Under the pieces are notes generated by a model. That model had not been told where the DNA came from. It saw only the letters and a list, made by a program, of their open reading frames with translations, and made no database searches. Below, piece by piece: positions 25,577-54,380 of a stretch of 62,336 nucleotides of DNA (the first letter of the stretch is position 1; each line of letters starts with the position of its first letter). Location of the stretch: contig JAFSLQ010000015.1 in the NCBI GenBank assembly GCA_017448355.1, positions 1 to 62,336 of the forward strand, read 5' to 3'. The stretch is from Clostridia bacterium (lineage in GTDB: Bacteria > Bacillota > Clostridia > Christensenellales > Borkfalkiaceae). Position numbers and translations under genes: made by a program.

Positions 25577-25613
25577 GCACTGACAGGCATTGTCAGTGCA
25601 GAAGTAATAAAAT
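25577..25613 (+). promoter_or_regulatory. palindromic operator and -10 box upstream of the HTH gene
   Basis: Perfect inverted repeat GCACTGACA (25577-25585) and TGTCAGTGC (25591-25599) with 5-nt centre GGCAT. Twelve nt after TGTCA comes TAAAAT (25608-25613). The same TGACA-N5-TGTCA-N12-(-10 box) layout occurs at 48916-48948 and 54348-54380. It probably binds a dimeric repressor or activator. Confidence 0.55.
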
Positions 25614-25632
25614 ATAAGAAACCAAGGGGAAA

Positions 25633-25965
25633 ATGAGAAGTAGATTTATTCAAAATGAGATATTGGTTTTACTTTCGGATAAAAATGTGCATACGGCGCA
25701 AGAAATAGCAGATACGCTTGAGATAAGTGTAGGGACAGTTTACAGACATATCAACGATTTATCGGGATCGTACCCTATAACTACGGGGTGTTCGAGTTCT
25801 TTTAGAGGGATCAGGTTGTTATACAACAATCCCGACGAACAAATTTTCAGCGAATGGGAAATAAGTTTTTTAATATCTATTTTCCCGACGGATAAAAACG
25901 AGTCAAAGGCAAAAAGTCTTTTGAAAAAATTATACGATTTAAAACAAGCGAGTTGTTTTGAATAA
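25633..25965 (+). CDS. small HTH regulator
   Basis: A 110-residue protein with a winged helix-turn-helix (about 5-50: EILVLLSDKNVHTAQEIADT, then LEISVGTVYRHINDL), of the HTH_11/DeoR type. The rest is a short helical tail. The longer WYL or sugar-binding domains of that family are missing. The start follows AAGGGG. Because the palindrome lies directly in its promoter, autoregulation is likely. Confidence 0.7.
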   Translation: MRSRFIQNEILVLLSDKNVHTAQEIADTLEISVGTVYRHINDLSGSYPITTGCSSSFRGIRLLYNNPDEQIFSEWEISFLISIFPTDKNESKAKSLLKKLYDLKQASCFE

Positions 25966-25989
25966 AAATAAGAAAGGAGAATAGGCGGG

Positions 25990-26136
25990 ATGAAATACGC
26001 AATGTGTCCTAAGTGCGGAAGAAAACTTTGCAGAGGCGGCATGGGGTCGGAAATAGAAATAGAGTGCCCTAAATGCCATAAAGTTTTCCACGTTCATATA
26101 GAGGAAAACGATATACATATAAGAATAAACCACTAA
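25990..26136 (+). CDS. 48-residue zinc-ribbon protein
   Basis: A small protein with two cysteine pairs, CPKCGRKL and CPKCHKVFHVH, forming a zinc ribbon like phage Mu Com or the translation-coupled Com family. Its start lies about 25 nt after the HTH gene, with AAAGGAG upstream, so the two are probably cotranscribed. It could be an adaptor that binds nucleic acid or another protein. Confidence 0.6.
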   Translation: MKYAMCPKCGRKLCRGGMGSEIEIECPKCHKVFHVHIEENDIHIRINH

Positions 26137-26227
26137 AAAACTAATAACTGAATAATTTTGGCATAAGGTTCCGTTGAACGCTTATGCTAACGCTTTGTAG
26201 AGATTGAACTTAAAAATTGTTAAGAGG

Positions 26228-26313
26228 AGTCTGGCAAGCAGATAAAATCCTTTACGGGACGAGTCTGTCTTGCCGGACTTTTTTCTGTCACGCTCGACTG
26301 TATGGATTTTATC
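26228..26313 (+). terminator. terminator with an alternative pairing segment
   Basis: AGTCTGGCAAG (26228-26238) pairs with CTTGCCGGACT (26269-26279), followed by TTTTTT. GATAAAATCC (26241-26250), inside that loop, can pair with GGATTTTATC (26304-26313) downstream. The two pairings cross, which could form a pseudoknot or an attenuator-type switch for the gene at 26397. Confidence 0.5.
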
Positions 26314-26396
26314 CATCGCATTCGGGCTTTTTTATTTTAAAACAATCGTCCGATTGCGATTAAAAAAACAGAAATCAAAAATCGGAGGATTTAAAA

Positions 26397-26696
26397 ATGA
26401 AAAAAATGTATGCAACCCTAACTTTACACGACGGAAAGAGTAAAGAAGTTTACGTTCACGTTGACGAACAAACGGCAGAGATGCTTGAACAGCTTGAAGA
26501 CAAAGAACTTGTCAATCAATATCTTATAGACGAGTTTAAAATGGCGATGGACGATTATTCCTATCGTCGCCACACAATTTCGTTCGAGCAAGCAAAAGAA
26601 AAAGGCTTTGACCTTGCTGCACCGACGGATTTATTAGAAGAAACAATTAAAGCGGAAAGTGAAGATAAAGTACGGCAGAGGAAACGAATAACATAA
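26397..26696 (+). CDS. sigma-factor-like N-terminal fragment protein
   Basis: A 99-residue protein with a strong start (TCGGAGG). The N-terminal beta part (YATLTLHDGKSKEVYVHV) and the helical DEFKMAMDDYSYRRHTISFE resemble the first portion of small sigma-70-like proteins found on clostridial mobile elements. The region-4 helix-turn-helix is absent, so I treat it as a truncated or divergent member. It is followed 8 nt later by a fragment of a repeat protein. Confidence 0.45.
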   Translation: MKKMYATLTLHDGKSKEVYVHVDEQTAEMLEQLEDKELVNQYLIDEFKMAMDDYSYRRHTISFEQAKEKGFDLAAPTDLLEETIKAESEDKVRQRKRIT

Positions 26697-26704
26697 TAAA
26701 CGCA

Positions 26705-27214
26705 TTGTCAAGCAATAAGTCCGGCGCCGTAATACTTAAATTTTACGACGAAGAGGGCGAAGAGATAACCAAGTATACGCTTTCGTTAGACGTAACGGCG
26801 ATAAAGAATCAGTTAAGGGTAACGGGCTTGTCGCTTGATAGAAACACGCTCGTATTCGGAGAGAATAAGACCTATACCATAACTTACCGCAGGGCAGGAA
26901 TGACAACGGGACTTACGCTCTTTGAAGTCGGTTCCGAATACGGTTTAAGTAAACTTGACGGCGGCGCTTATCCGGAAAGTTATAAAGCGGGGACGAGCGT
27001 AACGGTGAGCAACTTAAAGACAAATTTTTCCTGTAGCGGCAGCGATGGAATATACCATTCGGGGAGCGGCAGCGGAAGAGCGTCGTATAAATTCAACGGC
27101 TGGTATTGGGACAATGCAAAGACAAAACCGTTCGACGGAACGATACCTGCCGGAATGATCGGGGACATAGTTCTATATGCTGACATAACTTCGGTTTATA
27201 CGCACAACTATTAA
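26705..27214 (+). CDS. fragment of an InlB-repeat surface protein
   Basis: A 169-residue frame starting at TTG without a good ribosome site; the frame is open further upstream to about 26670, overlapping the previous gene. The C-terminal part, with YKFNGWYWDNAKTKPFD and GDIVLYADIT, is an InlB/Listeria-Bacteroides repeat. The upstream part has strand-rich Ig-like character (LSLDRNTLVFGENKTYTITY). No signal peptide, so it is likely the 3' remnant of a secreted protein gene. Confidence 0.45.
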   Translation: MSSNKSGAVILKFYDEEGEEITKYTLSLDVTAIKNQLRVTGLSLDRNTLVFGENKTYTITYRRAGMTTGLTLFEVGSEYGLSKLDGGAYPESYKAGTSVTVSNLKTNFSCSGSDGIYHSGSGSGRASYKFNGWYWDNAKTKPFDGTIPAGMIGDIVLYADITSVYTHNY

Positions 27215-27299
27215 TTTGTAGGGCAAAGCAAAAAGTATAGATAAGATAGAGATAGAAAAAGGCGTCTGTAACGAAAATCCGTAACAGCCGCCGAAAAGA

Positions 27300-28658
27300 T
27301 TATAGCAAGAATGTCATATATGATGGTAAACAAATCACATTGTCCTTAATTGCAAAATTTTTAGTGTGAATTATGAACGATTCACCAATGCGTTGATGGT
27401 AAACACCTATAAACTTTGTTAAAGATTTTGTTTCGTAGCGTTTACCGGATTTTACTTCGATGGGGAAGATTTTAGGTTTGGTCTTACTTCCGTTAGAGAT
27501 TATAAAGTCAATTTCCATATCATTTCGATGATTTTCTTCATTGTAATGAGTGTAGAAATACAGTTTATAACCGTTTGCGGTAAGGCATTGGGCAATGGCG
27601 TTCTCGAACAACATACCTTCGTTTATAGAAAGGTTGTCGCGTAGAATTTGACGGTATAGTTCGCCGTTTGCGATTTCTTTTTCGTTAAATGCGTGGCTAA
27701 CCAAAAGTCCTGTGTCGTTCAAATAACACTTAATATATGCTCGGTCTTCATTAAACGAAAGCCCGACGTTAGGATCGTCACAGCAGAAACACTCGTTGCA
27801 TATCATTGAATCGCCGAGCCAATAAAACGTTTCTTCATATAAAGGATAAGAAGCGTTGCCGTCGATATTTGAAAGTCTTACGCGCTTTTCATGTTTGGAT
27901 AAAAATGCAGGTATCTGTTCAAAAATGGCTGCGATTTTGGCACGGTAAGACTTATCCGCTTTTTCGATGTCGTTTCTGTAAAGAGTAAGAATATCTCTTT
28001 TTTCGGCATCTGCGGCAGCAAAACTGCGATTGTTTTCAAGATATTTTGCGAGCGGCATCGGCATTCCGCCAACGAGCATATATTGCTTGAATAATAGCAT
28101 TGCCTTGTGATGCAGACCTTCTTCAAGCGGAATACGTTTTTTGAAACAGAGTTTGATATAGTCAATCATCTTTTCTTCGTTAAGCGCCCAACAGAATTCT
28201 TCAAAATCCATAGGATACATTTTTATCGGACGTTCTTCCGATGGTACGGTGATGTCTTGTATGTTTTCTTTTATAGAAATAAGAGAACCCGTTTCAATAT
28301 AATCGTATCTTCCGTCCTTAACGAGTTTTTTTATCGACTGACGGGCTTTGGGGAACTTTTGTATTTCATCAAAGATTATAAGGCTTTCTTTCGGATATAA
28401 CGTTTTATTGTATTCGGTGGAAAGTATAAGGAAGAAAGTATCGAGATCGTTAAGATAGTTATCAAAAGCGTCGAGAACAACTTTAGACACATCGTTGAAA
28501 TCAATAAGGATATAACTTTTATATTCCGCTTTGGCAAATTCTTCGACGATAGTGGACTTACCGATTCGTCTTGCGCCTTCAACAAGCAATGCTTTTTCAC
28601 TTGAAGAATGGTTTTTCCAATCGAGAAGTTTGTCGTATATTTTACGTTTAAAAATCAT
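27300..28658 (-). CDS. DUF4143 AAA ATPase
   Basis: A 452-residue cytosolic ATPase. Walker A is VEGARRIGKST (about residue 27) and Walker B is SLIIFDEIQKFP (about residue 95). The C-terminal DUF4143 half carries the nuclease-like IEVKSGKRYETKSL motif (E-x-K). Such proteins are often strain-variable and have been proposed as toxin- or defence-like, but their role is not settled. It is monocistronic on the minus strand, flanked by decayed genes. Confidence 0.9.
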   Translation of the reverse strand: MIFKRKIYDKLLDWKNHSSSEKALLVEGARRIGKSTIVEEFAKAEYKSYILIDFNDVSKVVLDAFDNYLNDLDTFFLILSTEYNKTLYPKESLIIFDEIQKFPKARQSIKKLVKDGRYDYIETGSLISIKENIQDITVPSEERPIKMYPMDFEEFCWALNEEKMIDYIKLCFKKRIPLEEGLHHKAMLLFKQYMLVGGMPMPLAKYLENNRSFAAADAEKRDILTLYRNDIEKADKSYRAKIAAIFEQIPAFLSKHEKRVRLSNIDGNASYPLYEETFYWLGDSMICNECFCCDDPNVGLSFNEDRAYIKCYLNDTGLLVSHAFNEKEIANGELYRQILRDNLSINEGMLFENAIAQCLTANGYKLYFYTHYNEENHRNDMEIDFIISNGSKTKPKIFPIEVKSGKRYETKSLTKFIGVYHQRIGESFIIHTKNFAIKDNVICLPSYMTFLL

Positions 28659-28771
28659 ATTTACACCGCCATTTTAGTTTCTTTGAGTATATTATAGCAA
28701 ACGATTAGAAAAAACGCAAGATAAAAGTGGTAAAAAATAGGGAAAAACGCAAGATAAATTTTTAACAATAT

Positions 28772-29281
28772 ACGGTAATACGCAGTTTAACGTGTGAACT
28801 GAAAGAATTTGCGGTAGAAGGAAAAATTGAGCGAACAAAAAACAGATTAAAAAATCTGACTTGCATGAGAGCCGATGGAGAAATTGGCAAAGAAGAATAC
28901 TTGAGCCTTAAAGAAAAATGTGAAAGCGAGATTAAGTCATTGCAAAATGAATTGACACCATCAGTGCAAAGTGATACAATAGAAACACGAAAAATTGTTG
29001 ATTTGGAAAAAATAGAAGAGCGGCTTAATCAACTAATAGATTTTCCGGACGGAAAAGTCCCAAACGAGATTATAGAGGAATTTGTTGCGGCAATTGTTCC
29101 CGAAGAAGACGGAAAACATTTTAATTGGTATTTACCGCTTGACGACGAAGAATATCACCAAAGTTTTTGTACATTGGACGGAAGGAAAAACACTTTATCG
29201 TTGGACGTAAAATTGTTCAAGATGATGAGGGATTACCTACTTTTTTTCACAATCAGTACTTCGCAGAAGTTGATGAGATAG
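28772..29281 (+). pseudogene. C-terminal remnant of a serine recombinase
   Basis: From about 28798 the frame reads ELKEFAVEGKIERTKNRLKN, then MRADGEIGKEEYLSLKEK and the final beta part, as in the coiled coil and C-terminal end of large serine recombinases. The catalytic and zinc-ribbon parts are absent. It is not a duplicate of the complete recombinase at 10367-11911, which is clearly different in this part. It shows a second, decayed element in this region. Confidence 0.6.
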
Positions 29282-29374
29282 GCAAAAATCCCTATCAACG
29301 CGGAGTGCTGCACAAGCTAATATCAAAAATCCGAGAAAATAGCGTTTTGCAAATTCTAATAAGTTTTGTGAGCA

Positions 29375-29405
29375 TTTTGCCCCGCCGAATTTCGGCGGGG
29401 CAAAA
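29375..29405. terminator. bidirectional terminator
   Basis: Perfect 15-bp arms TTTTGCCCCGCCGAA and TTCGGCGGGGCAAAA with a one-base centre. It ends the minus-strand radical SAM pair. Confidence 0.85.
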
Positions 29406-29408
29406 TTA

Positions 29409-30149
29409 TTATTCGTAAGTTTCAGGCAAAAATTTGCGGTATCTTCTGGGCATTAAATTGTCTTGCTGACGTGTGTTCTTTCGTTCTTTTATAGTTACCG
29501 CTTTATAGTAGTTTTTCCAAAGGTTTTCCCACGCTTTTTCGTCTTCCGAAAGGTTCAGCGCGGCTTTATTTTCGGTTTCCATAATTTTGTACTCTTTTCC
29601 GTTTGAAACGCCCGCTTTGTTCCTTTTTACGTCGTGGATTATAAACGGAACGCAGGATAGCCGTTTTATAAAATGCGGGCAAAGTAGTTCCGTTATATCG
29701 TTGTCGGGCGAATACGCCGCGTAAAGTACGCCGCTCGCCGTTTCCTTAAACCTTATTAATCCGAAAAATCTGTGTCTTTCATTAAATACTTTTTTTATCG
29801 TATAATAAAAAATTGATACGGCACGGTTTGCTAAAAATCCCGAAACGTCACGCCTTTCGGATAAAGTAAGATAGGCAAAATCGAACGCGATTTTAAGCGC
29901 GTTTTCGTCGCCCGATAAAAGACAGATTTCAATGTAAAGCGCGGCGCTTTTTCCGCCGTACTTTTTTATTGCCGTTAAAACACGTCGCGACTTTTCTTTC
30001 TCGGTCATTATCTCTATATACTTATCGGTGAAGTTGTTGCAAATATTCCCGCGTTCAAAGACGGCGTCAGGCATGGTTTTTTGTTCAAAGGCGTAAAACA
30101 GCGCAGAGTATAATCCGTCAATGGATTTTTCAATTAAAAACACCGTCAT
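29409..30149 (-). CDS. TIGR03915-type putative DNA repair partner protein
   Basis: A 246-residue protein of the family that always accompanies the radical SAM protein encoded upstream. Visible: the start VFLIEKSIDGLYSALFYAF and the end part AWENLWKNYYKAVTIKERKN followed by RQQDNLMPRRYRKFLPE. Its start overlaps the radical SAM stop (ATGA), so the pair is translationally coupled. Family notes name it a putative DNA metabolism protein; no reaction has been shown as far as I know. Confidence 0.85.
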   Translation of the reverse strand: MTVFLIEKSIDGLYSALFYAFEQKTMPDAVFERGNICNNFTDKYIEIMTEKEKSRRVLTAIKKYGGKSAALYIEICLLSGDENALKIAFDFAYLTLSERRDVSGFLANRAVSIFYYTIKKVFNERHRFFGLIRFKETASGVLYAAYSPDNDITELLCPHFIKRLSCVPFIIHDVKRNKAGVSNGKEYKIMETENKAALNLSEDEKAWENLWKNYYKAVTIKERKNTRQQDNLMPRRYRKFLPETYE

Positions 30150-31396: not shown

Positions 31397-31474
31397 AATG
31401 TGCCTTACGATAGTATTATAATACGTCGCCGCAAAAAAGTCAAACAAATGTTCGGATTTTGAAATAAAAACTTC

Positions 31475-31503
31475 TTGACAGAGAGCGCATTTTGTTGTAT
31501 ACT
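31475..31503 (+). promoter_or_regulatory. sigma-A promoter
   Basis: TTGACA (31475-31480), 17 nt, TATACT (31498-31503). It drives the membrane-protein gene starting at 31530. Confidence 0.7.
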
Positions 31504-31529
31504 GTTTACATATTATTAAACAAGGAGAA

Positions 31530-44162: not shown

Positions 44163-44730
44163 ACTTGATGAAGCGATACGCTTTGCAACGGACGCGCATA
44201 AAGGACAAAAACGCAAAATGACAGGGATACCGTCTATCCTTCACTCTTTGGAAGCGGCGACCATCGTTTCCAATTTGACAAGTGACGAAGACGTTATATG
44301 CGCCGCGGTTTTGCACGACGTCGTCGAAGACACGAAGTGGGAAATAGGCGATATCGAGGCGCGATTCGGCGCAAGGGTAGCGGGGCTTGTGGGCGCGGAA
44401 ACGGAAAACAAACGGTTCGGGTTACCGCCTTCCGCCACTTGGAGAATAAGGAAGGAAGAATCGCTTGCGCATTTAAAGCGAGTGCCGGATATCAACGTAA
44501 AATATCTGTGGCTTGGGGATAAACTTTCAAATATGCGCGCTATCTACGTGGAATATATGAAAGACGGCGACGAGATTTGGAAGAATTTTAACGAACGCGA
44601 TAAAGCGAAACAACAATGGTATTACGAAAGCGTAGTCGAAGTGCTTAGGTCGGATTTGAAGGATTCGCCGATTTTTTGGGAGTACGAACGGCTTGTGAAT
44701 ACGGTTTTTAAAAAGGGAGAAACAAAATGA
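44155..44730 (+). CDS. HD-domain (p)ppGpp hydrolase-like protein
   Basis: A 191-residue metal-dependent phosphohydrolase resembling the HD half of RelA/SpoT (Mesh1-like small hydrolases). Visible: RFATDAHKGQKRKMTGIPSI, the HD pair LHDVVEDTKW, and the ED/LWLGDKLSNMR metal motif. It lacks the synthetase domain. The start is TTG, chosen because GGAGAAG lies 6-12 nt upstream. It overlaps the phosphatase gene by 8 nt and the STAS-kinase gene by 4 nt, so the three form one translational unit. Confidence 0.85.
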   Translation: MDKLDEAIRFATDAHKGQKRKMTGIPSILHSLEAATIVSNLTSDEDVICAAVLHDVVEDTKWEIGDIEARFGARVAGLVGAETENKRFGLPPSATWRIRKEESLAHLKRVPDINVKYLWLGDKLSNMRAIYVEYMKDGDEIWKNFNERDKAKQQWYYESVVEVLRSDLKDSPIFWEYERLVNTVFKKGETK

Positions 44731-45899
44731 ACTACCAAAATGAAGACAAAACGTTGACTGTACTTTTAAGCGGCAGAATAGATTCTTCGAACGCCGACGC
44801 GGTTGAAAAGGAAATATCGGAAATACGCGAACAAAATGCGCACGATATTATGATTTTGGACGCCGACGGGTTGGAGTACATATCTTCTGCGGGGCTTCGC
44901 GTGGTGTTAAGGCTTAAAAAGTCCGAACCGTCCCTGTGTCTTATAAACGTTAATTCCGAAGTGTACGAAATTTTCGAGATGACAGGCTTTACCGAGATGA
45001 TGGATATTAAAAAAGCCTTTCGCCGCATTTCGCTTGAAGGCGCGGAACTTATCGGACAGGGCGCAAACGGTAAGGTTTACAGAGTAAACGACGATACTAT
45101 AGTAAAAGTATACATTAATCCCGACAGTTTCGGCGACATACAAAGGGAAAGAGACCTTGCCAAAAAAGCGTTTGTTTTAGGTATTCCGACGGCAATTTCT
45201 TACGATATTGCGCGCGTTGGGGATAGTTACGGCACGGTGTTTGAAATGCTGACCGCCAAGTCATTTGCAAAACTTATTTTTGCCGAACCTGAAAAACTTG
45301 ATTATTATATAGGTCTTTACGTCGATTTGTTGAAAAAGATACACAAAACGCTGGTAAAGGAAGGCGATATGCCCGATATGAAGGAAGTCGCGCTGAGTTG
45401 GGCGAAATTCGATATGGATTATCTTCCCAAGGAAATCGGCGAAAAACTTTTTGCTTTGGTGAACGCGATTCCGAAAGACAACCATATGTTGCACGGCGAT
45501 TATCACGTTAAAAACGTTATGATGCAGGACGGGGAAACGCTTTTAATCGATATGGATACCTTGTGCGTTGGTAATCCCGTATTTGAACTCGGTTCTATGT
45601 TTAACGCTTACGAAGGTTTTTCCGCGTTAGACCCGAGTGTTTCATCGGCGTTTTTGGGAATATCGCACGAACTTGCCGTTAAAATTTGGGAAAAATCGCT
45701 TTCAGCGTATTTGGGTACTACCGATAAAGTTAAACTTGAAGAAGCCGAAAATAAAGCAAAGATTATCGGGTTTATGCGCTTGTTGCGCAGAAGTATCCGC
45801 CGCGGCGGGCTTTCCGACGCGACGATGAAATCGGAAATTGATTTTTATATCGAACAACTCGTATCACTCGTCGGCAAAACGGATACTCTTATAATTTAG
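44727..45899 (+). CDS. STAS domain fused to an APH-like kinase
   Basis: A 390-residue fusion. Residues about 1-98 are a STAS anti-sigma antagonist domain with the phosphorylatable serine region LEYISSAGLRVVLRL. Residues about 105-385 are an aminoglycoside phosphotransferase/choline-kinase-like domain: GQGANGKVYRV, MLHGDYHVKNVM (catalytic loop, Asp) and LLIDMDTLCVGNPVFELGSM (DxD metal motif). I would call it the output of the partner switch: phosphorylation of the STAS serine by the upstream protein may control the fused kinase. Substrate unknown. It follows the HD gene with ATGA overlap. Confidence 0.88.
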   Translation: MNYQNEDKTLTVLLSGRIDSSNADAVEKEISEIREQNAHDIMILDADGLEYISSAGLRVVLRLKKSEPSLCLINVNSEVYEIFEMTGFTEMMDIKKAFRRISLEGAELIGQGANGKVYRVNDDTIVKVYINPDSFGDIQRERDLAKKAFVLGIPTAISYDIARVGDSYGTVFEMLTAKSFAKLIFAEPEKLDYYIGLYVDLLKKIHKTLVKEGDMPDMKEVALSWAKFDMDYLPKEIGEKLFALVNAIPKDNHMLHGDYHVKNVMMQDGETLLIDMDTLCVGNPVFELGSMFNAYEGFSALDPSVSSAFLGISHELAVKIWEKSLSAYLGTTDKVKLEEAENKAKIIGFMRLLRRSIRRGGLSDATMKSEIDFYIEQLVSLVGKTDTLII

Positions 45900-45913
45900 T
45901 TAATGAAAAGCAC

Positions 45914-45940
45914 AAAAGCGACGGCAAAAGCCGTCGTTTT
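45914..45940. terminator. terminator between the STAS-kinase gene and the tRNA-Arg fragment
   Basis: Arms AAAAGCGACGGC and GCCGTCGTTTT around AAAA, followed by G ATTGTTT on the plus strand. It could also end a minus-strand tRNA transcript. Confidence 0.8.
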
Positions 45941-45947
45941 GATTGTT

Positions 45948-45991
45948 TGGTACTCCCGACGGGAATCGAACCCATAACTAACCCTTAGGAG
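45948..45991 (-). other. 3' half of tRNA-Arg(CCU), probable element attachment site
   Basis: On the minus strand the 44 nt run from the anticodon loop CTCCTAA through stem GGGTT, variable loop, T-arm (ATGGG TTCGATT CCCGT), acceptor strand and CCA (45948-45950). The 5' half of the tRNA does not follow: upstream of CTCCTAA the sequence is TATATTCA, not a stem partner. tRNA-Arg(CCU) genes are classical tyrosine-integrase targets. I read this as the left attachment site of the element that begins at about 45990. An intact tRNA-Arg would be expected beyond the right end of the window. Confidence 0.75.
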
Positions 45992-46136
45992 TGAATATAT
46001 CTCACCCTGACGTAGGGTTATATAGTGCGTAAAATACATAATTTGCGTAATTTTCGCCGTTTACTCGCCGTATTTTGCGTAGTTTTCATAACGACTGAAA
46101 ACTTTTATAACGCTTAATAAAAGTAAGTCACCAAAA

Positions 46137-46158
46137 AGGTCACCATTTCTGGTGACCT
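46137..46158 (-). terminator. GGTCACC inverted repeat
   Basis: AGGTCACC and GGTGACCT around ATTTCT, with another GTCACC 13 nt further left at 46127-46132. It lies 28 nt after the stop of the minus-strand gene at 46187 and could terminate it; the extra copy also allows an integrase or repressor site. Confidence 0.45.
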
Positions 46159-46186
46159 AAATATAACTAGTTAATATATGGAATTA

Positions 46187-47386
46187 TCAAAACGCTTCCA
46201 GTAAATCAGAAATTATTGTAGGAAGTTTGTTTTTCATATAATTGTCAATTTGTATTCCTATAGTATCTTCCAAAAACTCATCTTTAATATCAAGATTATT
46301 GTCTTTAACAAGATTTGTCGAAGAAATTGTTTTCCATTTATTTTTTAAAGTTTTACCTTTCATTTTATAATTATGTTTGACGGCAACATCAAATAATTTT
46401 TGTCTATAATTTTCAAATTGGCTATCGGCAGGTCCGATAATTACAGCAAGATTGACGCCGTATCCTTCAAAGGTTTGAAACTCAAAACCTATTAAATTCG
46501 TTTGATTTGCAACCCAACCATTTCCCATATGTCCACAAACTTTAACAAGTTGATTCGGTGTAAAACGTACGTAATGCTTTGTATGATTATCCCATACACA
46601 AATGTCATACTTATCGGCAATATCCAGTAAGTAATTATATATGTAATCTGAAAATCGACTTGCTACATCCGGTCTGTTTTCAAAGATTAAATCAAAAGCT
46701 TGTTGATGTTTAAAATATATTTTTTTACAAATATCAATTATTTCTTTGTCTTCCACGACGTTTCTCCTTATCGCATTAATATAATCTTCAATGTATAACT
46801 TTGCTTTATCGGGTATCTTGTAAATACTAATTAGGCTAGTAATTTCTTCTAGTACAAATTCATAACTCATACTAACCCAATTATCTTGATCTGACGATTC
46901 ATCTCCAGCTGGTGACAAATATATTAAGACATAATGAAAGTCTTTCGGATAATCTCTTAATAAACCGACTTTATATTTTTCTAACTGGTTAGAATGTTCT
47001 GTTGAGCCAATTTTATTCTCTATTGCTAAAACCAAACCATTACTTTCTGAAACAATTAAGATATCAATATTATCCTTTTCACGATAGACAATAACATCTT
47101 CTAAATTCATTAAATCAATATCCACAGGCGTTAGTCCATTCATGATGTCGATTTTTGTGCCTTTTGTAGAATAAATCAAAAATTTCTTCAACAGTTTATC
47201 ATATAACCCATGCATTTCGTTAGGGTTTAAGAGCCAAGAGAGCATATTACTATGTCGTATTTCAGCACGATCGAGTTTAAGAAGGCTAAATATATTTAAA
47301 TCGTTAGTCCATTCATGTAACGGCTCTAAACAATCAATATCGGATATTAAATCGTTTATTACGAGCATTTTTTCATCATTTGTCAT
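46187..47386 (-). CDS. PD-(D/E)XK nuclease-family protein
   Basis: A 399-residue protein of the PF14281-like family. The N-terminal stretch NIFSLLKLDRAEIRHSNMLS leads to the nuclease core NIDILIVSE...LAIENKI (Asp108, Glu123-x-Lys125). The last 150 residues are a separate domain (VANQTNLIGFEFQTFEGYG). Related proteins occur on mobile elements and in defence islands, sometimes acting alone. It is AT-rich, and reads towards the attachment site. Target unknown; nuclease activity is inferred from the motif. Confidence 0.82.
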   Translation of the reverse strand: MTNDEKMLVINDLISDIDCLEPLHEWTNDLNIFSLLKLDRAEIRHSNMLSWLLNPNEMHGLYDKLLKKFLIYSTKGTKIDIMNGLTPVDIDLMNLEDVIVYREKDNIDILIVSESNGLVLAIENKIGSTEHSNQLEKYKVGLLRDYPKDFHYVLIYLSPAGDESSDQDNWVSMSYEFVLEEITSLISIYKIPDKAKLYIEDYINAIRRNVVEDKEIIDICKKIYFKHQQAFDLIFENRPDVASRFSDYIYNYLLDIADKYDICVWDNHTKHYVRFTPNQLVKVCGHMGNGWVANQTNLIGFEFQTFEGYGVNLAVIIGPADSQFENYRQKLFDVAVKHNYKMKGKTLKNKWKTISSTNLVKDNNLDIKDEFLEDTIGIQIDNYMKNKLPTIISDLLEAF

Positions 47387-47752
47387 AAAAACACCGTTTA
47401 GTATACTATTTCTTAAAATTTATTGAGAATTGTTTTCTAAGTATATTGTATATTATGTGTCTGTAAATTGCAATTATTTTTAGCTGTTCACTTGAAATGC
47501 TTTAAAATAAAAATCTTTGGCAGATATTGTAAATTTATGTTAATTAGCCTAAGATTTTACTTTCTGTAATATATAACAAACTTTACTAGAAATCTAAAGT
47601 CTGACTTTATTTTACTCGTAATTTTATAAACAGTTTTTATAATTTTTGTAGTGCCAAAAAAACAGATATTAGTTGACTTTTTTAACACAATTTCTCTGGG
47701 CTCTTGCCACGGTTTACGGTATACTTTGGTTGCAAACGAAGGAGATACATCC

Positions 47753-47941
47753 ATGACAAAATCCTATGCACAGAGAAAACTAGCACTACTTATAAAAGAC
47801 CATAACCACTACGTAAAGGTTGGATACGCCGACGCAGTCAAAGATTACCGCACGGCGATTGATATGCTGATAAGCGTAGCAAGTCGCCAAGGCATAAAGA
47901 TGCACTACACCGTTTCGGCTGACGGATATATAAATAAGTAA
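47753..47941 (+). CDS. small accessory-element protein
   Basis: A 62-residue protein with ATG 47753 and GGAG 8 nt upstream. Basic and helical (QRKLALLIKDHNHYVKVGYA); no family known to me. The open frame before the ATG is not coding. The 47387-47752 stretch before it shows nothing beyond AT-rich sequence and probable divergent promoters. Confidence 0.6.
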   Translation: MTKSYAQRKLALLIKDHNHYVKVGYADAVKDYRTAIDMLISVASRQGIKMHYTVSADGYINK

Positions 47942-48079
47942 AAACAGATACGCTATCGAAAGTCGTCAAACTAGATAATTGCCGCTGCAGACACAATTCT
48001 GTGGCGACAATTATTTGATTTAAAATTATATTTTTATATTTATATAACAAAACGAGTAGATATAAAAATTCATTTACGG

Positions 48080-48085
48080 TATAAT
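48080..48085 (+). promoter_or_regulatory. -10 box of a leaderless mRNA
   Basis: TATAAT at 48080-48085 ends 6 nt before the ATG of the metallophosphoesterase gene, with a 4/6 -35 box (TAGATA, 48057-48062) 17 nt upstream. There is no ribosome site, so the mRNA is probably leaderless. Confidence 0.5.
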
Positions 48086-48091
48086 AGCAGC

Positions 48092-48874
48092 ATGAGATAT
48101 TACGTAGTTGCCGACCCGCATGGGCATTATACCTATCTAGTGGAGGAATTAAGAGAAAAAGGATTTTTTGAAGATGCAGAACCGCATAAACTGATAATCT
48201 GCGGTGATATCTTCGACCGTGGCAACGAAGCCAAGAAAATACAGGAATTCGTTCTTGACTTAATGAAAAAAGACCAAATTATTCTTATAAGAGGCAATCA
48301 CGAAGATTTAGCAATAGAATTTATAAAAAATGCATGGCGATATATTCAATGGGGCTTAAAATCCAGTCACCACTACTCTAACGGCACGGTTGATACTTTT
48401 TGCCAACTGATAGACATGAATTTATACGACATGGCAATCTTTACTAGTAAGGCAGTAGATTTGATGGAAAATACGCCGTATATAAAAAACATTATTCCCA
48501 CTATGGTAGATTATTACGAAACGTCAAATTACATATTTGTTCATGGTTGGATACCGTGCAAAGCGAGTGGTTTTGGTGGGCAAGCATCAAATTTTGAGTA
48601 TGATAAGGAGTGGCGGAAAGCGAGTCCTGAAGAATTTGAACTCGCAAGATGGTACAATGGGATTTTGGCTGCATCACAGGGCGTAATTGAGCCAAATAAA
48701 ACTATAGTATGCGGACATTGGCATTGTTCCTACGGACATTCTAAACTCGAGCATAAAGGTTATGAATTCGGGGAGAACGCAAATTTCTCTCCGTATAAAG
48801 GTAAAGGAATAATCGCTTTAGATGCTTGCACCATTGAATCCCGCAAGATTAACTGTATTATTATAAACGATTGA
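48092..48874 (+). CDS. calcineurin-like metallophosphoesterase
   Basis: A 260-residue cytosolic phosphoesterase. Metal-binding motifs appear in order: VADPHGHYTYL (D-x-H, about residue 8), GDIFDRGNE (GDxxDRG), LIRGNHED (GNHE), HGWIP and CGHWHCSYGH. It resembles bacterial and phage PPP-type protein/diadenosine tetraphosphate phosphatases, which often occur on phages. It is in the left module of the integrated element. Substrate not predictable. Confidence 0.88.
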   Translation: MRYYVVADPHGHYTYLVEELREKGFFEDAEPHKLIICGDIFDRGNEAKKIQEFVLDLMKKDQIILIRGNHEDLAIEFIKNAWRYIQWGLKSSHHYSNGTVDTFCQLIDMNLYDMAIFTSKAVDLMENTPYIKNIIPTMVDYYETSNYIFVHGWIPCKASGFGGQASNFEYDKEWRKASPEEFELARWYNGILAASQGVIEPNKTIVCGHWHCSYGHSKLEHKGYEFGENANFSPYKGKGIIALDACTIESRKINCIIIND

Positions 48875-48915
48875 TAGGATGTTTTTGTAGTAATAATTGA
48901 AAAATTTTTAATAAT

Positions 48916-48948
48916 GACACAAACTGTCATATATCCTGTGCTATAATA
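48916..48948 (+). promoter_or_regulatory. TGACA-N5-TGTCA operator with -10 box
   Basis: ATGACA and TGTCAT (48915-48931) form an inverted repeat with centre CAAAC; 12 nt later TATAAT (48943-48948), preceded by TGTGC. The same layout lies before the methyltransferase gene (54348-54380) and before the HTH gene at 25633. It controls the gene at 48977. Confidence 0.6.
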
Positions 48949-48976
48949 TCTTTATTAAAGCGAAAGGGTTTAAAAT

Positions 48977-49834
48977 ATGGCAACTCAAAAGGAAATTATA
49001 AAGAAATATATACAAGCTTTTAAGGATATTAAAACTTGGACGATTGACGATGTAAACGAAGAAATCGTTAATAATAATTTGAGTGATAACGAAATAATCG
49101 AAGAATATGAAGAAATTATACGTCAAGTTAACCATCTGATTGACGTTGCTTTAGGTCAAGCAGTTTACGATAACTTAGACGAAGAGATTATGGCAGATAT
49201 TGCCGAAAAAGAAAACACACGAAATGTTCCCATTGAACCACTAGCAAGGTCTCAGTACGTTATTTCTAGAATAAAAACAGATGTTGAAAGATATCGCGCT
49301 TGCCGAGATTATAACCTTAAGCATGGTGTCGACATAAAACAGCGAGGAATAAAATATGAATATCGCCTTGCTAAACAGGAGTACCGTGATATTGCCAAAG
49401 ATTATAAATATATAATCGAAAAGCTCAATGGTGAATTAAAAAAGCATAGGCCAGTATTTGAAGAACTAATTATGAAGGGATTAACGCTTGAAGAATACGG
49501 CAGATTGAAAAAAGGACCAAATGGTGATAGAAAATACCTTATTAAATGGGCGTTTAATAAGAAAATGTCGTTTATTAAGGCTTTAGGTAAATGTTATGCA
49601 AACGACATATCAAGCATGAACTACTATAACGGTATCCAAAAAGAAAATGCGGAATACGATGGTAGAGATTACTATATGGTCGAGAGGGAAATTGTTAGTG
49701 ATGCATTATCTCTAGTAGATAAACATCAAAAAGAGTATTTTCTTGCAATGAAAGAAGCCTATGAAGAAATATACGAAACGGTAGAATCAATGCGGAAAGA
49801 AAGTAAAGAGAAACCTGATATTAGTTTCATATAA
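48977..49834 (+). CDS. unknown charged helical protein
   Basis: A 285-residue protein with no recognised family. It is rich in Lys, Glu, Tyr and Asp and almost wholly helical, with long amphipathic stretches (KEIIKKYIQAFKDIKTWT; EYRDIAKDYKYIIEKLNGEL). No membrane segment, signal or cysteine cluster. The start follows AAAGGG. It lies under the shared operator and just before the replication module, so a role in element maintenance or regulation is possible. Confidence 0.7.
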   Translation: MATQKEIIKKYIQAFKDIKTWTIDDVNEEIVNNNLSDNEIIEEYEEIIRQVNHLIDVALGQAVYDNLDEEIMADIAEKENTRNVPIEPLARSQYVISRIKTDVERYRACRDYNLKHGVDIKQRGIKYEYRLAKQEYRDIAKDYKYIIEKLNGELKKHRPVFEELIMKGLTLEEYGRLKKGPNGDRKYLIKWAFNKKMSFIKALGKCYANDISSMNYYNGIQKENAEYDGRDYYMVEREIVSDALSLVDKHQKEYFLAMKEAYEEIYETVESMRKESKEKPDISFI

Positions 49835-49844
49835 AAGGTTGTCT

Positions 49845-49914
49845 CACGCGCGCGTGCGTATTGTGGAACAAAATGGAATATTAAACTAGCGATATTATAT
49901 ATTGGTATCGCTAG
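49845..49914. promoter_or_regulatory. palindrome and inverted repeat before the primase gene
   Basis: CACGCGCGCGTG (49845-49856) is a perfect alternating purine-pyrimidine palindrome. CTAGCGATA (49886-49894) and TATCGCTAG (49906-49914) are perfect 9-bp arms 11 nt apart. They may be operators or parts of an origin. Confidence 0.45.
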
Positions 49915-49920
49915 CAACGG

Positions 49921-49950
49921 AAAGCACCTGTTAGCAAACGGGTGCTTTTA
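49921..49950 (+). terminator. terminator before the primase gene
   Basis: AAAGCACCTGTT pairs with AACGGGTGCTTT (one G-U pair) around AGCA, then TTAGTTTT. Confidence 0.7.
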
Positions 49951-49992
49951 GTTTTCTTAAGGAAACACTCAAAAAATTAGTGGAGAAGAAAA

Positions 49993-51948
49993 ATGAACAT
50001 TTTTGAAAAAGTGAAAGACCAAGTCAAGATTACGGACGTGGTAGAAAGGTACGGCTTACACCTAAATTCAAGTATGAAAGCGTTGTGCCCTTTCCACCAC
50101 GAAAAAACGCCGTCGTTCTCGATTGACCCTAAAAACGGTATATTTACTTGTTTCGGTTGCGGGGAAACGGGAGACGTGATCTCGTTTGTGTCAAAGATCG
50201 AAAACATTGAGCCGTTGGAGGCGGCTAGAAAACTCGCCGATATGTATAACATTGATATAGAAGAGTTCCGTAGCCGTCCTACAATTAAGGAATACCTACA
50301 ACAATGCATACGAGACGTGGATAAAACCGATTATTTCAAAACAAGGGGTTTGACTGACGAGACCGTAAAAAAATACTGTCTCGGCTACGACGTAAAAAAA
50401 GACGCCGTCGTCATCCCTTACTCTTCGGAGTTAAGGTATTATCAAAGGCGGAGTGTAAAAGAAAAGAGATTTTATAAGCCGACCGTGGAAGATGCGGGTA
50501 GCGAACCGCTTTTCAACCAGAACGGATTATACGGCAACACCAAAAGCGTCTTTATAGTCGAATCGCCTATATGCGCGCTGTCTATAATGCAATGCGGAAG
50601 TCCCGCCGTTGCACTATGCGGAGTTCAAGGGAAAAACAAGTTGGTAAAATGCGTTACGGCGAAAAAGCCGTCTGCTACCCTTATATTATGTTTAGACAAC
50701 GACGAAGCGGGAAAAACCGCCACGGACAGCCTTACAAAGAAACTTGACGAGAACGACGTAAAATACGTGGTTTATAACGTCGCAAAAGACTGTAAAGACC
50801 CCAACGAACTGCTTGTTAAAAAAGATAGCCTGTTAAAAGCGAGTATCGAACTTGCCAAAAAGGAAGTCAAGAAAAAATACACCGTGGGTTTCGGTGGTGT
50901 AACGGCAAACGAACTGGTTTTATCAAATATCGAACCGCCTAACTGGATTATCCCGAATATTCTTCCGCAAGGGCTGGCGATACTGTGCGCTAGTTCCAAG
51001 GTAGGTAAGTCCTGGATGGCGCTGCAAATGTGCATTGCAATCACCAGCGGTGAAAAGTTTATGGAATACCCCACGAACAAACACGGCTGTATGTATTTGG
51101 CACTTGAAGACAGTTATTACAGGCTTAAAGACAGATTGTCCAAAATGCGACCGAACTCGTTGTTCAGTAAAGAGTTTTATATGGGGATAAAGGCGCAAAC
51201 TATGGATTCGGGGCTTTTTGACCAACTGCAAGAAGAACTTACCGAACACCCGACCATAAAACTCGTTATAATCGATACCCTGCAAAAAATAAGGGGTCAG
51301 ATGCGGAAAAACGAACTAGCCTATGCTACGGATTATCGGGAACTCGGTAAACTAAAGGAATTCGCCGACAGCCATAAGATATGTATCCTTCTTATCCATC
51401 ACTTACGGAAAATGGCGGACGAGAACGACGTATTCAATATGATAAGCGGGTCAAACGGTATTATGGGTGTCTGCGACTCTATATTCATTATCTATAAGAA
51501 GAAAAGGACGGACGAGATGGCGTCGCTACATATGACGGGGCGTGACGTTAGACAGCAAGATATTGTAATAAACTTCAATGAAAAAACCTATAACTGGGAA
51601 ATCATGCAATCGCCCGAAGAGTTGGCAAAAGAGCGAGAACGCCAAAGACTTGAAGAAGACCCGCTCGTAATAACTTTAAAGCGTTTAATAGAACCGTCGC
51701 CTCACAAATGGGAAGGAACGGCGAGCGACCTTGTGAAGGCAATTTACGACGTGACAGGCAGTGCACATTGTGGCGGATATAGAGAACTCGGCAAAAAAAT
51801 AACCGACATGGATTGCAGTCTCTATTCACTGGGAATACAGCACTCTTCCAAAAGATCGGGAAAAGAGCGTCGGCACATCTTTACAAAGGCAACGAAAAAG
51901 GTCTTTCACGAACAGTTTGATATGTTCGATAAGGACGACGCTCTATGA
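49993..51948 (+). CDS. CHC2-type primase fused to RepA/DnaB-like ATPase
   Basis: A 651-residue replication protein. CHC2 zinc finger: Cys32, His35, Cys53, Cys56 (CPFHHEKTPSF, FTCFGCGETG). A TOPRIM-like part follows (about 170-260: FIVESPICALSIMQCG, LILCLDNDEAGKTA). The RecA-type ATPase has Walker A ASSKVGKSW (about 331) and Walker B KLVIIDTLQK (about 420), then LLIHHLRK. The C-terminal 80 residues are a winged-helix-like tail. Such primase-helicases initiate replication of islands, ICEs and phages. It directly precedes an iteron-like region. The start follows GGAGAAG. Confidence 0.9.
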   Translation: MNIFEKVKDQVKITDVVERYGLHLNSSMKALCPFHHEKTPSFSIDPKNGIFTCFGCGETGDVISFVSKIENIEPLEAARKLADMYNIDIEEFRSRPTIKEYLQQCIRDVDKTDYFKTRGLTDETVKKYCLGYDVKKDAVVIPYSSELRYYQRRSVKEKRFYKPTVEDAGSEPLFNQNGLYGNTKSVFIVESPICALSIMQCGSPAVALCGVQGKNKLVKCVTAKKPSATLILCLDNDEAGKTATDSLTKKLDENDVKYVVYNVAKDCKDPNELLVKKDSLLKASIELAKKEVKKKYTVGFGGVTANELVLSNIEPPNWIIPNILPQGLAILCASSKVGKSWMALQMCIAITSGEKFMEYPTNKHGCMYLALEDSYYRLKDRLSKMRPNSLFSKEFYMGIKAQTMDSGLFDQLQEELTEHPTIKLVIIDTLQKIRGQMRKNELAYATDYRELGKLKEFADSHKICILLIHHLRKMADENDVFNMISGSNGIMGVCDSIFIIYKKKRTDEMASLHMTGRDVRQQDIVINFNEKTYNWEIMQSPEELAKERERQRLEEDPLVITLKRLIEPSPHKWEGTASDLVKAIYDVTGSAHCGGYRELGKKITDMDCSLYSLGIQHSSKRSGKERRHIFTKATKKVFHEQFDMFDKDDAL

Positions 51949-52315
51949 CGTGAGAAAATTCTAGTATAAATAATGCACGTCACTTGCATTTAACGTCACA
52001 GCCTACCATTATTCCCTAAGGCTAATAAAGAAGGGTTTAACGTCATTTAAGACAGATAGCGTTATGACGTGAGTGACGTATAATTCTAGGTTTATAGGGA
52101 TTACCCCCCCTAGGGGGGTCAAATTTCTAGGCGAACGCTTTCTACTGCGGGGCCGCAAAATCGCGCGAATTTTCGCAAAATCAAAAATCAAACGGGAAAA
52201 TCAAAAATCACATATAAATACTGACGATAAATCAATTTTGATTTTCCAAAAAACGGACGAAAAATCAAAATAATTCAAAAAATCAAAACGGTAAAATTAA
52301 GATAAGGAGCAAAAA
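51946..52315. other. putative replication origin of the element (iterons and AT-rich repeats)
   Basis: Six copies of TGACGT or its complement lie within about 135 nt: 51946, 51977, 51993, 52040, 52065, 52074. Three of them extend to TGACGTGA and one to GTGACGTTA. Then come the palindrome CCCCCCTAGGGGGG (52105-52118) and about 130 nt of AT-rich repeats of AAAATCAAAA/AAAATCAA. Repeats for an initiator followed by an AT-rich unwinding region is the usual form of an iteron origin. The primase-ATPase gene ends at the first repeat, and the excisionase gene starts at 52317. Confidence 0.65.
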
Positions 52316-52316
52316 A

Positions 52317-52511
52317 ATGACCATACCGAGAATGAGAACTTTAACAGAAACGATGGCAGAAATAAAGGCACTAGACCCAAAGACTGCTGTCACCCCTAAC
52401 TGCGTTCGCACCCTTTGTAAAAGCGGTAAAATCCGCTGCGTATTCACGGGTAAGAAACTTTTAGTGGACCTAGACGATTTATTTAAATATTTCGGCAGTC
52501 CGGAGCAATAA
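52317..52511 (+). CDS. excisionase-type small DNA-binding protein
   Basis: A 64-residue protein with a MerR/excisionase-like helix-turn-helix: TLTETMAEIKAL, VTPNCVRTLCKSGKIRCVFT and KKLLVDLDDLFKYF. In its place just before the integrase it would direct excision of the element. Start follows AAGGAG. Confidence 0.8.
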   Translation: MTIPRMRTLTETMAEIKALDPKTAVTPNCVRTLCKSGKIRCVFTGKKLLVDLDDLFKYFGSPEQ

Positions 52512-52595
52512 TCTCTGGACTTTAAGCAAAAAATACGCTTTTGTTTTGTTAAGGGGTTTGCTATACCCCAAAACGAAATATAGGAGAAAAGAACA

Positions 52596-53990
52596 ATGGC
52601 ATGCATAAGCAAGCGAGAGACTAAAAGCGGTTTAACCTACCGCGTTCAGGTCAAAGTCAAGGATAAAGGTAGCGGGCGGATTAACGTATATTCTACAACG
52701 TGGAAACCGCAGGCGGGTTCGTCCCCTAAACAGATAGAGCGGGACTTAACCTTATTTGCGGCGGAATACGAGAACTCCGTTAAGATGGCTGCGTCGGCAT
52801 CAGGAGAGCCTACACAATCCCCCGAAAGCACTTTATCGCAATACTCGATTTGGTGGCTTAAACGCCGAAAAGACGAGATTGCAGCGAGTTATTATGTAAA
52901 CTGCGAGTCGGCAATAGAACTTACCGACAAGCACATAGGCGGGTATAAACTTAAAGAACTGACGCCGAACATTATTCAGCAGTATTACGATAAACTTGAC
53001 AGAGCGGAAAAGACGGTAACCGTGGTAACGGCAAAACCCACCCTTCGGGAGAAAATGAAAACGACGGGCGTGGGATACATGAAACTGCGCTACGAAAAAG
53101 GGTTCAGCAGTTGTTCGCTTGCAAACGCACTTTCGGGGCGGCGCATAAGTTACGAATACGCCAAACGCCTTGCCGCCGCCTTTAACGAAAGCGTGGATGC
53201 GCTGTTCGACGTAAAACAGACAAAGCAAAGATACGCCCACGAAACGATAAGCAAAATAAAGCGCACGCTACGGGCTGTACTTGCCACGGCTAAAAAGCAA
53301 AGGCTAATCGCCGACAACTACGCAAGTGCCGACTACATAACCTTCCCTAAGCGCCCGCCAAGGCAGATAGACTATATGGACGACGAAGACGCTAAACGGT
53401 TTTATAAGGCGGCTGACGAGTTCCCCGATATCCGCTACAAAACGGCCATGCTGACGCTATTGCTTACGGGTATGCGCCGTGGCGAACTGTGTGGCTTGGA
53501 GTGGCAGGATATAGACTTTGAAAACGCCACCATCACCATCGCACGGTCGCTTACCGCCGTCCGAAAGGTAGGTTTGGTTCTAAAAGACCCGAAGACCGAA
53601 AGCAGTAAGCGAGTTATCGCCGTGTCGGACAAACTACTCTCCACCCTTAAAGAGTATAAGGAGTGGTACGATAATTATAAAACTACGCTCGGCGATAAAT
53701 GGCAGAACAGCAACCGACTGTTTACAAGCGAGTTCGGTGGCGTTATGTATCCTGGGACGATAAACTTCTGGATGAAAAAGATATGTGTGGCGGCTGGGCT
53801 TGAATATAGAACGGTTCATAGCCTTAGGCACACGAATATAACCATGCAAATCGCCGCAGGCGTGCCTATCGTAACGGTAGCAGGCAGAGCGGGTCACGCA
53901 AGGACAAGCACAACGACGGATATATACAGCCACTTCCTTAAAACCGCCGACCGCACCGCCGCCCAAAAGATAGAAGAAATATTTGAGTAA
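52596..53990 (+). CDS. tyrosine recombinase (integrase) with inserted HTH-like segment
   Basis: A 464-residue site-specific integrase. An arm-binding N-terminus (TYRVQVKVKDKGSGRINVYS) and core-binding domain are followed by the catalytic domain with Arg in LLTGMRRGELCGLEW, HSLRHTNI (His, Arg), AGHARTSTTTDIYSHF (His and Tyr nucleophile). Inside the core-binding domain, about residues 150-205, lies an XRE-like helical segment (LRYEKGFSSCSLANALSGRR, YAKRLAAAFNESVDALFD). It probably inserted the element at tRNA-Arg(CCU). The gene is preceded by ribosome site TAGGAGAAAAG. Confidence 0.92.
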   Translation: MACISKRETKSGLTYRVQVKVKDKGSGRINVYSTTWKPQAGSSPKQIERDLTLFAAEYENSVKMAASASGEPTQSPESTLSQYSIWWLKRRKDEIAASYYVNCESAIELTDKHIGGYKLKELTPNIIQQYYDKLDRAEKTVTVVTAKPTLREKMKTTGVGYMKLRYEKGFSSCSLANALSGRRISYEYAKRLAAAFNESVDALFDVKQTKQRYAHETISKIKRTLRAVLATAKKQRLIADNYASADYITFPKRPPRQIDYMDDEDAKRFYKAADEFPDIRYKTAMLTLLLTGMRRGELCGLEWQDIDFENATITIARSLTAVRKVGLVLKDPKTESSKRVIAVSDKLLSTLKEYKEWYDNYKTTLGDKWQNSNRLFTSEFGGVMYPGTINFWMKKICVAAGLEYRTVHSLRHTNITMQIAAGVPIVTVAGRAGHARTSTTTDIYSHFLKTADRTAAQKIEEIFE

Positions 53991-53997
53991 ATATCGC

Positions 53998-54023
53998 AAC
54001 CTCGACCGTAAAAAGTCGGGGTT
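53998..54023 (+). terminator. terminator of the integrase gene
   Basis: AACCTCGAC pairs with GTCGGGGTT (one G-T pair) around CGTAAAAA, then ATATTTTGTC. Confidence 0.75.
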
Positions 54024-54131
54024 ATATTTTGTCTTTATCTTAAAGAAATTCTTTGAAAAAGCGAACAAGTCGCTTGATAATTCCGACATAATATGATAAA
54101 ATATAAAAAATACCACTTTGGGGGTACTTTT

Positions 54132-54335
54132 ATGGCTGTAAGTTATAACAAATTATGGAAAATGCTTATCGATAAAAAGATGACAAAAAACGCCTTACGC
54201 ATTAAGGCGGATATGTCTTCTTCTACTATGGCTAAAATGAGCAAGAACGAAACTGTATCTATGGACGTAATGCTCCGCATCTGCAAGGTGTTAGATTGTA
54301 ATATCGGCGACATTATGGACGCAGAAAAAGAATAA
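54132..54335 (+). CDS. small XRE-family repressor
   Basis: A 67-residue helix-turn-helix protein of the HTH_26 type (WKMLIDKKMTKNALRIKADM, SSSTMAKMSKNETVSMDVML). ATG 54132 has GGGGG 10-14 nt upstream. The operator TGACA-N5-TGTCA at 54348 lies just after it, before the methyltransferase gene, and another in the element at 48916. A candidate to bind both sites, by position. Confidence 0.8.
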   Translation: MAVSYNKLWKMLIDKKMTKNALRIKADMSSSTMAKMSKNETVSMDVMLRICKVLDCNIGDIMDAEKE

Positions 54336-54347
54336 TTTTTATAAACA

Positions 54348-54380
54348 TGACAGATGTTGTCAAGTTTATTACATTATAAT
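54348..54380 (+). promoter_or_regulatory. TGACA-N5-TGTCA operator with -10 box
   Basis: TGACA (54348-54352), centre GATGT, TGTCA (54358-54362), 12 nt, TATAAT (54375-54380). It drives the methyltransferase run. There is no -35 consensus in the expected place. Confidence 0.6.

Follow-up and report, generated by a model that had tools for sequence, protein, structure and literature searches.

Palindromic promoters of a clostridial mobile element are probable targets of a chromosomal WYL regulator

The window analysed here is a stretch of 62,336 nucleotides (contig JAFSLQ010000015.1, assembly GCA_017448355.1) from a Clostridia bacterium, and it holds three sites at which an inverted repeat is placed at a fixed distance from a -10 box. 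Two of them, sites 2 and 3, lie in a mobile element with an integrase, a primase-helicase and methyltransferases, and they are probably WYL-type activator-dependent promoters that would be read by a chromosomal regulator of the type encoded on contig C50 of the same genome. Site 1, which precedes a gene for a small helix-turn-helix (HTH) protein, belongs by its sequence to a different, element-borne palindrome family, despite an equal bare core and spacing.

Palindromic promoters in the window and in related genomes

The palindrome TGACA-N5-TGTCA occurs exactly three times in the window, always on the + strand, and a TAAAAT or TATAAT box stands exactly 12 nt past each copy (25581-25613, 48915-48947 and 54348-54380 with the -10 box included). 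These exact matches bear out the original prediction of three inverted repeats with a 5-nt centre, 12 nt before a -10 box and without a -35 element, except that site 2 had been placed one base too high, at 48916-48948. The hexamers 17 nt before the -10 boxes of sites 1, 2 and 3 (AGGCAT, ACAAAC and AGATGT) agree with TTGACA at one, one and none of six positions, so that a -35 consensus is absent from all three. If the -10 box is set at -12 to -7, the palindrome of site 2 covers about -39 to -25. The centres are GGCAT, CAAAC and GATGT, as had been claimed, and because centres and spacers differ among the three sites, simple copying of one promoter was ruled out.

Chance does not readily produce such sites. 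When up to two mismatches were allowed, the window matches stayed at three, all of them exact; 100 dinucleotide shuffles of the window gave a mean of 0.13 matches and a maximum of 1. In 200 windows simulated with a Markov-3 model, the bare palindrome appeared 0.015 times per window on average (maximum 1), and the palindrome followed by N12 and a -10 box did not occur. The whole genome (1.94 Mb, 60 contigs) contains the palindrome six times, three of these inside the window, and the reversed-pattern control gave no match.

An order-level search covered 396 genomes with the centre left free at 2-8 nt and the spacer at 6-18 nt, and the spacer counts given here are distinct hits within the 150 matches listed from it. 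Among these listed matches, a spacer of 12 is found 20 times with centre 5 (sites 2 and 3 included) and 16 times with centre 6; a spacer of 11 is found four and three times, respectively, and a spacer of 13 with neither centre. The other large group among the matches listed has TGACA 16-18 nt before TATAAT, which is an ordinary -35. The reading of TGACA as an ordinary -35 fits this separate group and not the sites at 22-23 nt, and it was rejected for the latter; among the matches listed, a single hit in each spacer-12 group can be read that way too, G005 (also L026/L101) among the 20 with centre 5 and G369 among the 16 with centre 6. Within the genus, 16 of 44 genomes carry the pattern GACA-N5-TGTC-N13-TANAAT, with 27 matches in all and none for the control, and in viral contigs the exact pattern occurs in 40 stretches versus 13 for the reversed control (counts only). 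The arms and the 12-nt distance therefore recur far above control in the genome and its relatives, and the hits mostly lie at promoters for those genes whose surroundings were inspected, both as the original prediction would have it. In sequence, sites 2 and 3 match an order-wide promoter class with centre 5 or 6 and spacer 12.

The C50 regulator and the separation of site 1

The C50 regulator is a chromosomal protein of 308 aa, encoded outside the window, with HTH_11, WYL and WCX domains, and its gene adjoins one that reads as murG. The genome has only one further WYL gene, on contig C4, whose protein looks unlike that of C50. The divergent promoter of the C50 gene reads TGACA-AACATT-TGTC, with TATAAT 13 nt past TGTC. 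The small 67-aa gene that diverges from the regulator (L124:756-956) is likely its first target; no convincing family was found for it.

The surroundings of 27 order-level sites (10 and 17 further) were inspected, and a homologue of the C50 regulator stands beside nine of them, with a phmmer E value of 3.6e-32 or better (G250, G068, G411, G469, G298, G077, G300, G435 and G287:C15). Of 151 genomes, 89 have an orthologue; within the genus the figure is 37 of 44, and the seven without one are 58-79% complete. The best solved relative of a profile of 14 orthologues is PafBC, aligned over positions 6-297, nearly the whole length, and all 14 keep Arg192 and Arg198 in the WYL domain, although their functional role here is assumed.

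The link between gene and motif was followed at 30 WYL loci, all from the same genus. The core GACA-N5/6-TG[TG]C diverges from the WYL ortholog at every one of the 29 loci in which the gene start was found, an unanchored scan finds it in 30 of 30, and under a stricter unanchored pattern 29 of 30 loci show the complete promoter, the locus without a located start among them; only L143 falls short, as no TANNNT follows its core at 12 or 13 nt. The reversed control matched once in these 30 loci and never in 30 loci of homologues of the window's XRE protein. A second collection of WYL loci, mostly from uncultured Clostridia or Clostridiales, some of them from the rumen, carries the motif in 20 of 22 cases, a count to be read with the partial overlap of the two collections, since several genomes are probably in both. 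At 39-43% protein identity (L257-L267), the motif is present in 10 of 11 loci. Based on these results, a C50-type HTH_11-WYL-WCX protein is likely the best candidate reader of sites 2 and 3.

The training set of a position model comprised 46 distinct strings, taken from 45 of 46 WYL loci and including the C50 site; these score 24.6-39.9 (median 32.8). Sites 2 and 3 score 33.8 each; no other distinct place in the window exceeds 7.8, and 40 random windows reach at most 22.8. The two sites very likely share one regulator. The 27 genus matches fall into 18 that score at least 31 (sites 2 and 3 among them), seven of a family termed class A that score 3-13 (3.2 to 12.7; an eighth copy, on C60, was left out) and two others at 13-14. 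In the bacterium's own genome, sites on C42 (32.7), C12 (27.8) and C33 (27.2) score high too. Site 1 is set apart from sites 2 and 3 because it scores only 3.2 against 33.8, that is, the WYL-promoter flanks are not found there. The original prediction of a single regulator for all three sites therefore holds for sites 2 and 3 and was rejected for site 1.

Eight class A copies were found, five in the own genome (C8, C22, C1, C42 and C60) and three elsewhere (G015, G026 and G032, one copy each). Common to them are GACAG[GA]CATTGTC, a T-rich stretch upstream and an A-rich -10-like box. The exact pattern GACARGCATTGTC has six matches in three of the 398 family genomes. The region 25550-25620 and the seven other copies are long palindromes that could form a DNA hairpin. 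The chances are roughly balanced that site 1 is read by the HTH_11 protein encoded downstream of it at 25633, or else that its palindrome is a relaxase-type DNA hairpin of the element. An HTH_11 gene follows the class A copies on both C8 and C22, the C22 protein being a 64% identical paralogue of the 25633 protein; the outer arm pairs covary among the eight copies (T-A to G-C, C-G to T-A), so that the dyad is mostly kept; and the L071 copy precedes a DUF6291 gene followed by a relaxase-like gene just under the Pfam cut-off (23.5 bits, cut-off 24.6). On the other hand, the core GACA-N5-TGTC and the 12-nt distance of site 1 equal those of the WYL class, and the WYL protein may read site 1 as well. 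The 25633 protein had been proposed as a regulator of all three sites; it does not fit that role, and site 1 alone is left to it as a possible target. It has no significant BLASTP match to the HTH of the C50 protein, and the two share only the Pfam label HTH_11.

The architecture of the WYL promoters agrees with dependence on an activator. Their best agreement with TTGACA averages 1.74 of six positions against 2.66 in random sequence, none of the 46 strings reaches at least five of six, and 19 of them carry the TG of an extended -10. The distance from TGTC to TANNNT is 12 nt in 31 and 13 nt in 15 of the 46, compared with 12 nt in the mycobacterial PafBC-type P1 consensus, tTGTCRgtg-8 nt-TannnT (PMC5656591). 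The marks of a WYL activator are found together here: a regulator with HTH, WYL and WCX domains, a fixed distance from site to -10 box with the GTC half-site at about -26, and no -35 consensus. Sites 2 and 3 are likely to be activated without a -35, since their geometry comes within one base of that of PafBC-type promoters and their core is the GAC-N7-GTC found in the operator of another WYL activator, DriD.

Weighing the readers of sites 2 and 3

The same WYL protein might read sites 2 and 3 as a ligand-released repressor, in the fashion of BrxR and CapW, which are WYL repressors binding inverted repeats near defence promoters (PMC9122601 and PMC9122588). Site 3 indeed precedes methyltransferases, and at some WYL genes a palindrome seen by eye overlaps the ordinary -35 of the gene's own promoter (L080, L091, L092 and L096, and a second palindrome at L106), which would suit autorepression. 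An activator, however, better suits a spacing that is fixed at 12 nt and a -35 whose agreement with the consensus falls below that of random sequence. In addition, CapW palindromes overlap the -10, BrxR R-BOX1 lies past the promoter and R-BOX2 lies upstream of another promoter, a placement unlike that of sites 2 and 3. Repression is thus an unlikely account of these sites, and activation is inferred to be the more likely mode.

Two further readers were considered in place of the WYL protein. It is very unlikely that an unseen regulator, for example an element-encoded protein resembling sigma region 4, reads the class and that the WYL gene is one of its targets. Nine of the 18 high-scoring genus sites do stand ahead of genes for homologues of two proteins that match Sigma70_r4; yet a symmetric palindrome suits a dimer, the WYL-divergent sites have a different, small gene downstream, and the WYL link holds across genera. 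Control by the XRE protein encoded at 54132, acting like the controller (C protein) of a restriction-modification system, is highly improbable. This protein had been put forward as a candidate common regulator, its gene directly precedes site 3 and the methyltransferases, and in G007 an XRE homologue from outside the 30 loci (G007:C18, L027) and a C5 methyltransferase lie past such a site. But the strict pattern that is present in 29 of 30 WYL loci is present in only one of 30 XRE homologue loci, namely the window itself, and no site lies within 1.5 kb of the XRE copy on C28 (99% identity), which the next gene follows at once. The operator is therefore not linked to the XRE gene across relatives, and the XRE protein was rejected as the common regulator. 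The C28 copy (L008:1444-2663) stands past another integrase-like gene, and the start of the next protein looks TIR-like by eye; compared with the window, it appears to be the same module with different cargo.

Several points weigh against reading by the C50-type activator. Conservation of a site at a gene does not prove that the product of the gene reads it, and the motif is missing at L265 (Candidatus Coproplasma avicola) and L268 (Parapedobacter, 27% identity). The strings of the training set were selected by their core anywhere in the locus and without hand-check, so that only the flanks and the -10 box discriminate. The centre is mostly 6 nt long at WYL-promoter sites of the genus and 5 nt at sites 2 and 3, a length that does occur with WYL genes in other genera. 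Because the palindrome occupies the -35 place, a poor -35 is in part to be expected, and the TGTC-to-TA distance at sites 2 and 3 is 13 nt, one more than in the P1 consensus. Finally, no DNA-repair gene was recognised directly past the sites inspected, and the WYL relatives BrxR and CapW act as repressors.

Element genes, proposed mechanism and comparison with known WYL systems

Table 1. Predicted features of the three sites and of the genes behind them
Feature	Positions	Strand	Remarks
Site 1 palindrome, class A repeat family	25581..25595	+	arms reach 9 bp (GCACTGACA/TGTCAGTGC); WYL-model score 3.2
Site 1 -10-like box TAAAAT	25608..25613	+	no -35 (AGGCAT)
Orphan HTH_11 protein, 110 aa, past site 1	25633..25965	+	HTH_11; possible reader of site 1 only
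Site 2 palindrome TGACA-CAAAC-TGTCA, WYL-type	48915..48929	+	exact match; score 33.8
Site 2 -10 box TATAAT	48942..48947	+	extended -10 TGC; no -35 (ACAAAC)
Orphan gene, 285 aa, first past site 2	48977..49834	+	open reading frame
Primase-helicase	49993..51948	+	CHC2 zinc finger, Toprim, AAA_25; PHROG primase/helicase
Tyrosine integrase of the element	52596..53990	+	Phage_integrase
Small XRE regulator	54132..54335	+	HTH_26 (Pfam); candidate of the original prediction, not favoured
Site 3 palindrome TGACA-GATGT-TGTCA, WYL-type	54348..54362	+	exact match; score 33.8
Site 3 -10 box TATAAT	54375..54380	+	no -35 (AGATGT)
N6-adenine methyltransferase, first past site 3	54412..56088	+	Eco57I/type IIG-like
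C5-cytosine methyltransferase	56063..57160	+	
HNH nuclease, possible restriction enzyme of the run	57157..58524	+	HNH_2; weak methyl-directed restriction match

The orphan gene behind site 2 has no match in Pfam, PHROG, PADLOC or phage records, and across 151 genomes it finds itself and one weak partial match. The primase-helicase gene starts 158 nt past it on the same strand, and the integrase gene stands between the run of site 2 and that of site 3. Judged by strand and spacing, the genes past each of the two sites are probably co-transcribed as runs. The element had been labelled a tRNA-Arg element; ARAGORN and Rfam show only a tRNA-Ser in the window, at about 12119-12209, and no tRNA-Arg, and no attachment-site repeat was recognised within 44500-62336. 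A candidate phage-defence nuclease (46187-47386, - strand; PADLOC PDC-S26, PDDEXK_4) lies near the site 2 operon.

WYL-type sites precede other genes as well. Besides the nine genus sites ahead of sigma-like genes, a tenth high-scoring site (G024) precedes a gene of the type found on C42. The C42 downstream gene has no Pfam or PHROG match; its homologues are the G024 gene (E 1.3e-37) and, at weaker similarity, sigma-like genes from other families of the order. This chromosomal, weakly sigma-like gene (L189:3056-3791) lies past a WYL-type site of the own genome. Its order of large divergent gene, site, C42-type gene and convergent gene has a similar counterpart in G024, and counterparts with a terminase-like gene beyond in G207, G300, G436, G351, G461 and G135. 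A serine recombinase or integrase is present in four tested site neighbourhoods (L057, L060, L062 and L065), and the window's element likewise carries an integrase. The C12 site adjoins a serine recombinase: the C12 (L188:2236-3101) and G016 (L062:7700-10354) elements are serine-recombinase elements with a common module, made up of a WYL-type site, a putative zinc-ribbon small protein and a small HTH_11 protein that has no WYL match. Two adjacent GACA-N5-TGTC palindromes in AT-rich repeats on C28 (L001:3580-3700, C28:6588-6700) stand outside the identified classes.

The mechanism proposed for the C50-type regulator is as follows. A dimer of the WYL protein would bind the two arms, TGAC and GTCA, which flank the place of the missing -35, and the fixed distance to the -10 box would let the bound regulator start the housekeeping RNA polymerase in the manner of PafBC or DriD. 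Binding of sites 2 and 3 by the WYL protein is itself inferred, from the promoter class and its link to the gene. The regulator would use the same palindrome in its own intergenic region to switch on the small divergent gene, and the mobile element would have placed two of its runs, the orphan-gene/primase run at site 2 and the methyltransferase run at site 3, under this host factor. The element is thus apparently wired to a host WYL factor, and as relatives of the WYL regulator respond to DNA damage, it may listen to a host stress signal. Single-stranded DNA (ssDNA) or DNA damage is a conceivable signal by analogy, although no DNA-repair gene was recognised directly past the sites inspected.

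A wider role is possible but doubtful, namely that an ssDNA-sensing chromosomal WYL activator controls the mobile elements of the order, independently of the SOS response, as LexA controls prophages elsewhere. Replication, sigma-like and methyltransferase operons might, equally tentatively, carry TGACA-N5/6-TGTCA promoters for this end, and one could suppose, with no greater confidence, that host DNA damage or incoming single strands induce the elements and phage-related genes. A predictable site and spacing for a clostridial WYL factor would give a concrete regulon in uncultured gut and rumen bacteria, and it points to mobile elements there that tie the control of their replication and methyltransferase genes to a host sensor. 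In open-access titles and the starts of abstracts, a search from which most subscription journals fall outside, no description of a clostridial WYL regulon of this kind was found.

WYL activators are among the described non-SOS DNA-damage regulators, and those compared here, from mycobacteria and Caulobacter, act on repair genes or on an adjacent operon. PafBC, a mycobacterial activator that works by sigma adaptation and the closest solved relative by profile, has WYL and WCX domains after a winged HTH, as does the C50 protein. Its position is between the promoter and sigma domain 4, where it recognises a -26 motif, and ssDNA activates it (PMC11804915); it differs in being a heterodimer, of which only the PafB HTH contacts promoter DNA (PMC12340889), and in its DNA-damage gene targets, whereas here the palindrome is near-symmetric and the visible targets are mobile-element, sigma-like and small unknown genes. 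The operator of DriD, ATACGAC(X)7GTCGTAT, overlaps the -35 at a constant distance to the -10 (PMC12340889), and its GAC-N7-GTC is the core of the centre-5 sites here (GAC-A-N5-T-GTC). DriD belongs to another phylum, its outer bases are ATAC/GTAT, its targets are others, and many sites here are N8; any ssDNA dependence of the present sites would be an analogy only. Similarly, SiwR of Mycobacterium smegmatis is a WYL homodimer on an imperfect 19-bp palindrome that lies between the regulator gene and the neighbouring operon, its target, with the -26 region required (PMC10693628). The palindrome at the WYL genes here is placed in the same way, but that of SiwR is of another kind. BrxR and CapW share with the present system a WYL regulator, inverted repeats and defence-gene targets; they are encoded alongside the systems they control, whereas the regulator here is chromosomal and its site lies at about -39 to -25.

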